Source of the DNA: Paenibacillus phyllosphaerae
Lineage (GTDB): Bacteria > Bacillota > Bacilli > Paenibacillales > Paenibacillaceae
DNA: 64,000 bases
Assembly (NCBI RefSeq): GCF_014192105.1
Contig: NZ_JACHXK010000017.1
Coordinates: 62,001-126,000, forward strand
Reading direction: 5' to 3'
Position 1 is the first letter of the stretch. Every line of letters starts with the position of its first letter. Under the pieces are notes generated by a model. That model worked only from the letters and a program-made list of their open reading frames with translations, was not told the DNA's origin and did not search any database. A program made the position numbers and the translations under genes. Positions 8,799 to 10,772 of this stretch are shown one piece after another.

Positions 8799-8827
8799 TT
8801 GTTTGCTAAGTGGCAGACGGCTATGTT
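8799..8827 (+). promoter_or_regulatory. Promoter of the hflX leader transcript
   Basis: TTGTTT at 8799-8804 and TATGTT at 8822-8827 are separated by 17 bases, giving a predicted start near 8834. It lies about 660 bases upstream of hflX and 39 bases upstream of a 12-codon reading frame with its own ribosome site. Confidence 0.55.
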
Positions 8828-8865
8828 AGAATGAACGTACTTTATTGTAGAACGGAGGGTTACGT

Positions 8866-8904
8866 GTGATAGACTTTATCCGAGTTCGCTCTTTGCGCGC
8901 CTAA
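8866..8904 (+). CDS. 12-residue leader peptide with Arg-Val-Arg motif
   Basis: A GTG start at 8866 is preceded by GGAGGG at 8854-8859 with a six-base spacer, the strongest ribosome site in this stretch. The peptide reads MIDFIRVRSLRA and then stops at TAA. The RVR tripeptide fits the Arg/Lys-x-Arg/Lys (+X+) pattern at which macrolide-bound ribosomes stall in leader peptides such as that of ermD (established). It is followed 16 bases later by a hairpin and, much further on, by a terminator before hflX. Whether it senses antibiotics is inference. Confidence 0.55.
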   Translation: MIDFIRVRSLRA

Positions 8905-8920
8905 TTGAATAGCGCCAAGA

Positions 8921-8938
8921 CTCTGCCTGTGTGCAGAG
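8921..8938 (+). promoter_or_regulatory. Leader hairpin just after the leader peptide
   Basis: CTCTGC and GCAGAG form a perfect 6-bp stem with a 6-base loop starting 16 bases after the leader-peptide stop. It is well placed to respond to a ribosome paused on the peptide. Confidence 0.5.
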
Positions 8939-8972
8939 GACTCAGGATAGGTCTGCCCATTAAAGGTAACCC

Positions 8973-9071
8973 AAGGTGAAACGGACTTTGCCAGGCATCT
9001 GGCAACGGTAAGTTTCATTCCGGAGAAATCCAAGCCCCCCGCAAGCGTTGAAGCTGCGCGACTTGAATTTC
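8973..9071 (+). repeat. Tandem 99-bp structured repeat, copy 1
   Basis: Copy 1 starts AAGGTGAAACGGACTTTGCC and ends CTTGAATTTC, immediately joined to copy 2. It can form GTGAAAC/GTTTCAT around TTGCCAG/CTGGCAA, then GAAATCCAAG/CTTGAATTTC enclosing CGC-A-AGC/GCT-GCG. The minus strand happens to read open with a repeated RNETYRCQ-type peptide, which I regard as an artefact of the repeat. Confidence 0.85.
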
Positions 9072-9170
9072 AAGGTGAAACGGACTTTGCCAGGCAACTG
9101 ACAACGGTAAGTTTCATTCCGAAGAAGTTCAAGAACCCGTAAGCTTCGGAGCTCTACGTGCTTGAATTTC
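9072..9170 (+). repeat. Tandem 99-bp structured repeat, copy 2
   Basis: Copy 2 has the same start and end as copy 1. It differs at scattered positions, several of which keep base pairing: CGC/GCG in copy 1 is CGTA/TACG here, and GAAGTTCAAG/CTTGAATTTC pairs fully. The first 60 bases are nearly identical between copies, while the second hairpin diverges in sequence but not in shape. Confidence 0.85.
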
Positions 9171-9426
9171 AAAGGCATAGACGCCGACTGTCGCGGAATT
9201 GGCAGTAACGGCTGTTCATGCCAATACCCCTCACGAGATGATCGGATATAGATCTCGTGTACCTTTAATACACCTTTCGGATGCGCGGGAAGGACTGTTT
9301 GCCTCTTATTGGAGCAGGCGTCTTTCATCGGCACTCATCCGAGAATGACCTCTTGTCCGTGAAGCAAGCGAGCGTGCATGCAGCTCCACAAGCTTTGCGG
9401 AGAGATAACTGAGTTCCTCTCATCGA

Positions 9427-9458
9427 ACGCACAGGCCAAGGCTGACCGTGCGTTTTTT
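9427..9458 (+). terminator. Intrinsic terminator just upstream of hflX
   Basis: ACGCAC-a-GG pairs with CC-GTGCGT and is followed by TTTTTT (9453-9458). It lies between the leader and the hflX ribosome site, so transcription from the leader promoter must read through it. Confidence 0.85.
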
Positions 9459-9494
9459 GCTATTTATTTCACACCTTGAAGGGGGAATTCCCAT

Positions 9495-10772
9495 ATGGAA
9501 CCAACGAATAATAAAGCCGTCATCGTAGGCGTTAATTTACAGGACCGCCCGGATTTCGCGTACTCGATGGAAGAGCTGCGCAATCTGGCCGAGGCTTGCA
9601 ACATCGAAGTCGTCGCGGAACTGACGCAGAATTTGCCCAAGCTCAATAGCTCGCATTACCTTGGATCGGGGAAGGTTGACGAGCTGCTCGGATTGGCGGA
9701 AGGACTCGATGCTTCGACCGTTATTTTCAACGATGAGCTGTCGCCTTCGCAAATCCGCAATCTAGAGGGCGCGCTGCAAAAACGAGTCATCGACCGCACC
9801 ATTCTCATCCTCGACATCTTCGCCGAACGCGCGCAGACGCGCGAAGCTCAGCTTCAGGTCGAAGTTGCCCGCCTGCAGTATATGCTGCCAAGGTTGGTGG
9901 GCCTACGCGAATCACTCGGCCGTCAGGGCGGCGGCTCGGGCATGAAGAACAAAGGGACGGGCGAGACGAAGCTGGAGCTGGACCGCCGCCGCATCGAGGA
10001 CCGGATCTCGGCGCTGCAGGCGGAGCTCGAGAAACTGGTTGCCCGCCGTCAAGTACAGCGCAAGCAGCGGCAGAAGACGGGCGTTCCGGTCGTCTGTCTC
10101 GTCGGTTATACGAACGCGGGCAAATCGAGCCTCATGAATGCGATTCTGGACCGCTATATGCCGGACTCGAACAAACAGGTGCTCGCTAAAGACATGCTGT
10201 TCGCGACGCTCGAGACGTCGGTGCGCAGCATCGAGCTGCCGGACAACAAGTCGTTCTTGCTCACCGATACGGTCGGTTTCGTCAGCCAGCTGCCGCATCA
10301 CCTGGTCAAGGCGTTCCGTTCCACGCTCGAAGAAGTCGCGGAGGCGGACCTGCTCATCCAGGTCGTCGATTACGCGAATCTGGAGTATGAACGGATGATC
10401 GAGGTGACCAATTCGACCTTGAAGGAACTGGGCGCCGACCATATTCCGATGGTATACGCGTACAACAAGACCGACCTGACCGGCGAGCGTTATCCGCAAG
10501 TCAACGGCAATCAAGTCTACCTCTCCGTGAAGGAGCGGGCGGGGCTTGAGGAATTGATCGATGTCGTGAAGGCCCATGTATTCCAAGATTACGTCAAGTG
10601 CGAAGTGATCATTCCGTTCGCGGAGGGCCGCCTGGTGGCCTACTTCAACGCGAATGCGCATGTGCAGGCGACGGAATACGAGGCGAATGGCACGCGTATT
10701 ACGATGGAATGCAAAAAATCGGACTATGAGAAATATCAGCATCTGTTCCTGGAGCCGGAACCTGCGGAATAA
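9495..10772 (+). CDS. hflX: GTPase HflX (ribosome-splitting factor)
   Basis: This 425-residue protein is full length for HflX. It has the N-terminal HflX domain with the glycine-rich LGSGKVDEL segment, a coiled-coil linker rich in Arg/Gln (about 165-200), and a GTPase domain with G1 GYTNAGKSS (about 203), G3 DTVGF (about 257) and G4 NKTD (about 323). HflX binds the 50S subunit, splits stalled 70S ribosomes, and in Listeria a homologue gives macrolide/lincosamide resistance (established). The ATG at 9495 has GGGGGA upstream at suitable spacing. The gene stands alone, with a terminator on each side. The upstream terminator and leader peptide suggest it is switched on when translation is inhibited. 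Confidence 0.97.
   Translation: MEPTNNKAVIVGVNLQDRPDFAYSMEELRNLAEACNIEVVAELTQNLPKLNSSHYLGSGKVDELLGLAEGLDASTVIFNDELSPSQIRNLEGALQKRVIDRTILILDIFAERAQTREAQLQVEVARLQYMLPRLVGLRESLGRQGGGSGMKNKGTGETKLELDRRRIEDRISALQAELEKLVARRQVQRKQRQKTGVPVVCLVGYTNAGKSSLMNAILDRYMPDSNKQVLAKDMLFATLETSVRSIELPDNKSFLLTDTVGFVSQLPHHLVKAFRSTLEEVAEADLLIQVVDYANLEYERMIEVTNSTLKELGADHIPMVYAYNKTDLTGERYPQVNGNQVYLSVKERAGLEELIDVVKAHVFQDYVKCEVIIPFAEGRLVAYFNANAHVQATEYEANGTRITMECKKSDYEKYQHLFLEPEPAE

Follow-up and report, generated by a model that had tools for sequence, protein, structure and literature searches.

Attenuation of hflXr (lmo0762) in Listeria monocytogenes by rli80, a leader that carries an upstream open reading frame (uORF) with an Arg-Leu-Arg (RLR) motif, was established experimentally (PMC6310831). 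The element uORFC-6-1 was described from 51 examples, located "primarily" before hflX in Bacillales, in which a uORF with Arg-Leu-Arg lies in a covarying structure (PMC8632094). The erm(K)/erm(D) leader of Bacillus licheniformis is a transcription attenuator with an RLR uORF, MTHSMRLRFPTLNQ, and the likeness of the erm(K), msr(A) and mef(E) leaders at the peptide level is in print (PMC4335068). The tlrB (yxjB) leader of B. subtilis encodes the peptide MIIQFIRYR and makes use of both levels of control, transcriptional and translational (PMC6851288).

We analyzed a 64,000-nucleotide stretch of DNA from Paenibacillus phyllosphaerae (the window), in which an hflX gene follows a leader that resembles each of these systems in part. 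With rli80 it has in common a second hflX copy, a short uORF with Arg-x-Arg, an intrinsic terminator, an antiterminator, and an anti-antiterminator region that holds the uORF; it differs in having RVR rather than RLR, 12 codons rather than 14, a GTG start, and a long leader, the comparison being one of descriptions and not of DNA. Like uORFC-6-1 it lies 5' of hflX in a member of the Bacillales and places an Arg-x-Arg uORF inside covarying RNA, the window motif being RVR and not Arg-Leu-Arg, and judged from the description of uORFC-6-1 the two are most likely the same RNA. The main description of uORFC-6-1 names no antiterminator and no other gene family, and its supplements may list other genes (PMC8632094). 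What the window leader shares with erm(K) is the transcription attenuator, and near-identical peptides occur among the matches to our leader model described below, whereas the erm(K) gene encodes a methyltransferase and the uORF ends differ in this comparison, which is of peptides and not of DNA. FIRYR of tlrB is close to FIRVR of the window, and tlrB also has a terminator and a drug-stalled ribosome; in contrast, the description of tlrB identifies no overlapping antiterminator and adds sequestration of the Shine-Dalgarno (SD) sequence and NusG-dependent pausing (PMC6851288), and its R-x-R is C-terminal whereas RVR in the window is followed by four more codons.

With a probability of about 0.82, we consider the window leader to be an hflXr-type attenuator that controls transcription through the ribosome. 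It appears to be a genuine member of a kind that is already known, the stalling attenuators of the hflXr/rli80/uORFC-6-1 type, with a mechanism that we infer from its parts. The analysis contributes a model of the antiterminator of hflXr leaders that is supported by covariation and spans up to 508 nt, and it brings together the hflXr, erm(K) and mef/msr leaders, previously known piecemeal, as members of what appears to be a single RNA family.

Leader anatomy and the type of its hflX gene

The features of the locus are collected in Table 1. Direct reading placed the promoter, the GGAGGG, the 12-codon frame, the hairpin and the terminator exactly where the preliminary description had put them, and RVR, which it had read as a +X+ motif, is present in the uORF. 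The sequence TATGTTAGAATG was found within 60 nt 5' of the uORF SD in 9 of 58 leaders; with a less strict pattern the count rose to 34. GCACAGGC doubles as the 5' arm of the terminator, whose T-run lies 36 bases 5' of the hflX ATG. The whole leader (8834-9494) folded with z = -6.99, and none of 20 shuffled sequences folded as well. No Rfam family reached its gathering score in a scan of the window, and a scan of the leader returned only two matches, both far below their gathering scores.

Table 1. Features of the hflX leader and gene in the window; all lie on the forward (+) strand, and positions count from the first letter of the window.
Feature	Position	Basis and details
Sigma-A-like promoter TTGTTT-17-TATGTT	8799..8827	Direct reading; TTGTTT 8799-8804, 17 nt, TATGTT 8822-8827
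Shine-Dalgarno GGAGGG of the uORF	8854..8859	Direct reading; conserved in leader alignments
uORF MIDFIRVRSLRA, 12 codons, GTG start	8866..8904	+X+ motif R6-V7-R8 at 8881-8889
P1 5' strand, inside the uORF	8871..8886	Fold; self-versus-cross duplex test
P2 hairpin CUCUGC-CUGUGU-GCAGAG, anti-antiterminator	8921..8938	Consensus and window folding; begins 16 bases past the uORF stop
Antiterminator arm 1 GCCUGUGUGCAGAGGACUC	8925..8943	Duplex with arm 2; permutation test
P1 3' strand	8939..8954	Fold; duplex test
P3 5' strand UUAAAGGUAACC	8960..8971	Partner GUACCUUUAA 9259-9268; window sequence and relatives L009-L019
Two tandem repeat copies, ~99 nt each	8973..9170	Between the two P3 strands
Antiterminator arm 2	9409..9436	CUGAGUUCCUCU 9409-9420 plus GCACAGGC 9429-9436
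Intrinsic terminator, ends in T6 (9453-9458)	9426..9458	Direct reading; 5' arm much alike in relatives
hflXr-type GTPase gene	9495..10772	TIGR03156 435.2 bits; 8a57_D 467.8 bits

The genome holds a second, canonical hflX, whose product is 43% identical to HflX of the window. Among PDB chains the window protein matched 8a57_D, which we take to be HflXr of Listeria, far ahead of the next chain (272.7 bits), while the canonical protein matched 8a57_D with 290.7 bits, below the five other chains listed. The window protein also has a loop two residues longer than that of the canonical copy, which may correspond to the HD-loop, reported to be longer in HflXr (PMC12493154). By these sequence comparisons the window gene is an HflXr-type second copy.

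Conservation and covariation among hflX leaders

When the 180-nt leader core of one relative (L011) was used as an nhmmer query, the leader was found 5' of hflX at 64 of 78 loci. These 78 include some loci fetched twice, and there were 60 distinct leaders; by named locus the count was 51 of 60, with nine lacking such a leader. Five whole-genome loci (L071, L073, L078, L079, L081) gave no nhmmer match and were not counted; four of them carry the leader on the other strand, and a wrong orientation of these loci is the probable cause. The covariance model found no leader at any of 12 canonical-hflX loci (L087-L098). This model, R1, was built from the leader 5' domain of 32 sequences, the window among them, and the window 5' domain scored 138.2 bits against it as one of its own members.

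Conservation of the leader peptide in relatives, which the preliminary description had named as a check, is evident at these loci. When frames were set by aligning each leader to the uORF of the window, without regard to the motif, codons 6-8 read R-x-R or R-x-K in 51 of 58 leaders, and the start, stop and SD of the uORF were kept in most, the start codon being GTG in 53 and ATG in two. The middle residue was V in most leaders and I or L in some. Codon 8 was Arg in 50 of the 58 (AGA 16, CGT 12, AGG 9, CGC 8, CGG 4, CGA 1) and Lys in one. Seven leaders had no motif at codons 6-8: three of these (L040, L043, L046) have RLR in a shifted frame, another three (L045, L052, L056) have a +X+ further along, and L083 reads IRVW instead of IRVR, with no +X+, and nonetheless keeps the antiterminator pairing. 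In a set of 37 frames picked for containing the motif, codons 10-12 showed little variation, silent sites included, and are therefore probably under constraint from RNA structure as well.

Covariation supports a long-range antiterminator, in which a strand of the leader hairpin would pair with the strand before the terminator and with the terminator 5' arm. In the window the duplex of arm 1 and arm 2 was computed at -30.0 kcal/mol. Across 58 leaders arms scored -24.08 with their own partners and -20.87 with swapped ones, a difference reached in none of 5000 permutations (z -10.8); when swaps were confined to clusters of 80, 85 and 90% identity, it was reached in 0, 0 and 1 of 5000, and z was -7.5 when each cluster was reduced to a single representative (23 rows). 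A control pairing with the 3' side of the terminator gave z 0.9. Two leaders were left out of the pairing tests, L042, where no terminator was found, and L074, a duplicate of L014, and the terminators of L036, L045, L046 and L085 were placed by hand. Compensatory changes were seen in L018 and L084 (AGAGAA with UUCUCU), in L083 (GUCUGUGU with ACACAGAC) and in L048 (GUGGAGGAC with GUCCUCCAC). The same kind of duplex test for P1 gave z -6.1 with free swaps and -5.3 with the 23 representatives, and no significance within clusters of 85 and 90% identity. The antiterminator and the anti-antiterminator are mutually exclusive across leaders; folding of the window leader by itself did not reproduce the OFF state at equilibrium. 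The antiterminator is an element that was absent from the preliminary description.

Proposed mechanism and alternatives

In the mechanism we propose, ribosomes would clear the 12-codon uORF when no drug is present, and the uORF strand would then pair with its P1 partner next to hairpin P2. P1 and P2 would sequester the strand GCCUGUG-UGC-AGAGGACUC, and the terminator would end transcription. A macrolide-bound ribosome would stall at R-V-R and cover the P1 5' strand, and the strand released in this way could pair with CUGAGUUCCUCU, which directly precedes the terminator, and with GCACAGGC, which lies within it. With the terminator blocked, hflXr, encoding a ribosome-splitting resistance factor, would be transcribed. 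The preliminary description had suggested that such attenuation logic drives this hflX, and the suggestion gains support from the conservation of the leader, the covariation of the antiterminator, folding with a ribosome mask, the HflXr type of the gene, and the presence of the same leader before other macrolide-resistance families; the stalling, the identity of the drug and the read-through are the parts that we infer.

The distance from peptide to terminator had been singled out as unusually long, and it is: the span from hairpin to terminator is 508 nt in the window, the longest of the 58 leaders, against 123-446 nt in the other 57. Compared with close relatives the window has about 250 nt of extra sequence between the P3 strands, and this sequence, which holds two copies of a dispersed repeat, accounts for the length of the leader. 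The repeat is structured, of the form GGTGAAACGG-N-GTTTCATTCCG, and its pattern has 39 exact copies in the genome against none for the reversed control; it occurred in 14 of the 39 genomes searched, its own included. Its contexts are mixed, 21 of 30 being intergenic by a rough ORF rule. Its end motifs were found in none of the 57 other leaders, no Rfam family matched at the repeats in 20 repeat loci, and one 44-base pattern had no exact match in viral contigs. Three riboswitches were seen elsewhere in these 20 loci. We also considered whether the length renders an attenuator implausible and rejected this, because neither arm is missing and the additional stretch falls between the two strands of P3. 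The repeat-bearing leader offers a natural test of the distance that is permissible between antiterminator arms.

Equilibrium folding with no ribosome made the terminator dominant in 53 of the 58 leaders. With a mask representing a ribosome stalled near codon 8, the antiterminator became dominant in 32, and the shift exceeded 0.1 toward the antiterminator in 33 and away from it in none. The other 25 showed no shift above 0.1, and five leaders, including that of the window, were in the antiterminator state from the start. Control masks placed elsewhere, three per leader where room allowed, gave shifts toward the antiterminator in 8 of 162 cases and away from it in 17. A mask that reached only codons 1-2 shifted 29 of the 58 leaders, so the folding model does not single out codon 8.

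For the window leader, the equilibrium model, which leaves aside kinetics, pausing and Mg, put the antiterminator at 0.97 with no ribosome; P1 stood at 0.72 and P2 at 0.93 for transcripts up to 9425, and the equilibrium flipped once 9437 had been made. This copy is predicted to favor read-through in the absence of drug, against simple inducibility or tight OFF control here, unless kinetic trapping intervenes, and the equilibrium preference for the antiterminator would mean either that P1/P2 form a kinetic trap or that the copy is leaky or constitutive. It is possible that the copy has decayed or become constitutive, the extra repeat sequence and an over-stable antiterminator leaving the leader open and hflX on without drug, and the predicted antiterminator state without a ribosome, the flip at 9437 and the record span all point that way. 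We nevertheless regard a decayed or constitutive copy as unlikely, because the uORF, P1, P2, both antiterminator arms and the terminator are all present, the 5' domain scores highly against R1, the extra sequence sits between the P3 strands, and P1/P2 are in place well ahead of the synthesis of the partner strand, which renders kinetic trapping plausible.

The similar peptide of tlrB, and its use of both levels (PMC6851288), raise the question of whether translation attenuation or SD masking with pausing does the main work here, with the terminator pairing secondary, and consensus folding does pair the SD of the uORF itself. The SD of hflX, however, is a GGGGG at 9481-9485, which lies 3' of the terminator and takes no part in the pairings tested, and the covarying partner is the terminator arm together with the strand before it, and for these reasons we think it improbable that a translational mechanism dominates. 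It is also conceivable that the uORF is not functionally translated and that the region is kept as a structured RNA that binds a small molecule or protein. RNA pairing alone would give the low variation seen at the silent sites of codons 10-12 in the motif-chosen frames, but not readily the use of all six Arg codons at codon 8 or the retention of start, stop and SD in most leaders, and with no Rfam family matching we hold a purely structural role to be very improbable.

A putative leader family beyond hflX

R1 matched 93 of 398 Bacilli genomes and 43 of 146 genera (E <= 0.001), giving 104 distinct matches; in the window genome only the hflX copy was matched. The genes behind the 104 matches encode HflX (27), Mph (25), Erm (17), Msr (10), Vga (1), macrolide esterases (5), Mef (5), RlmA/TlrB-type methyltransferases (5), LmrB-like MFS proteins (5), short-chain dehydrogenases/reductases (SDR; 3), and a DHA1 MFS protein (1), with many of these assignments being family-level matches below the NCBIfam cut-offs for named alleles. 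Known macrolide-lincosamide resistance families follow 100 of the 104 matches, with the specificity of R1 judged from neighbor genes. NCBIfam named 38 of the open segments, and the others took their names from blastp matches to these segments or to HflX of the window. To assign the downstream gene we considered open segments of at least 130 aa on the same strand, up to the second one. In L162, L167 and L245 the match came from the second segment; for L206 and L211 the segment starts more than 1 kb past the leader, so that a smaller gene may intervene.

The mechanisms encoded behind the leader include ribosome splitting, rRNA methylation at two sites, drug phosphorylation, esterases, ABC-F protection and efflux. 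By a mechanical pick, a +X+ uORF was present in 56 of 77 non-HflX leaders and was lacking in the five esterase and three SDR leaders. The antiterminator test on 76 non-HflX leaders gave -18.1 for own and -15.0 for swapped partners (0 of 10000 permutations, z -8.4), with several Mef, LmrB and other rows kept in for which the automatic choice of terminator is probably wrong. Leaders appear to cluster by gene with repeated departures: a tree of 97 leaders, built on 116 columns and with most forks weak, required 32 changes of gene family, where the minimum is 10, the mean of shuffled trees was 62.5, and none of 200 shuffles was as low. In one bacterial family, leaders that are nearly identical precede mef and mph, with msr next in line in both cases (L212, L234). 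Ten genomes (G287, G150, G111, G180, G243, G258, G049, G128, G298, G351) have two or three leader copies before different genes, a pattern expected for a small regulon. The esterase leaders (L187, L221, L246, L253, L255) form one group in the tree with support of 93, and their peptides start with MWQI-; that these peptides have no +X+ suggests that arrest depends on another kind of peptide, which may respond to a different class of drug.

These data support one sensor with many effectors, short of proving a single homologous family. We somewhat favor the broader view that the hflX leader belongs to a single, portable family of homologous macrolide-sensing RNAs that Bacilli place in front of unrelated resistance mechanisms and swap among them. 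Such a family would be usable to find unknown resistance genes, with the SDR as the first candidate. A literature search that covered mostly openly available papers turned up no description of these leaders as one RNA family spanning the different gene families. Given that 100 of the 104 matches precede known resistance families, the leader could help to annotate resistance genes in environmental Bacilli, and the four remaining genes, three SDRs and one MFS pump, are candidate resistance genes.

The SDR is PRK08263-like and stands behind the leader in three genera (L182, L185, L190). SDRs matching that of L190 (E <= 1e-60) were found in 12 of 398 genomes; all three with at least 57% identity to it have the leader, and none of the nine more distant ones does. 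A literature search returned no report of such an SDR acting on ribosomal macrolides and did return an SDR that inactivates tetrahydroisoquinoline. The genomic context makes the SDR of L182, L185 and L190 a candidate for a new macrolide-related enzyme. The MFS pump behind the leader in L179 is Tet/DHA1-like.
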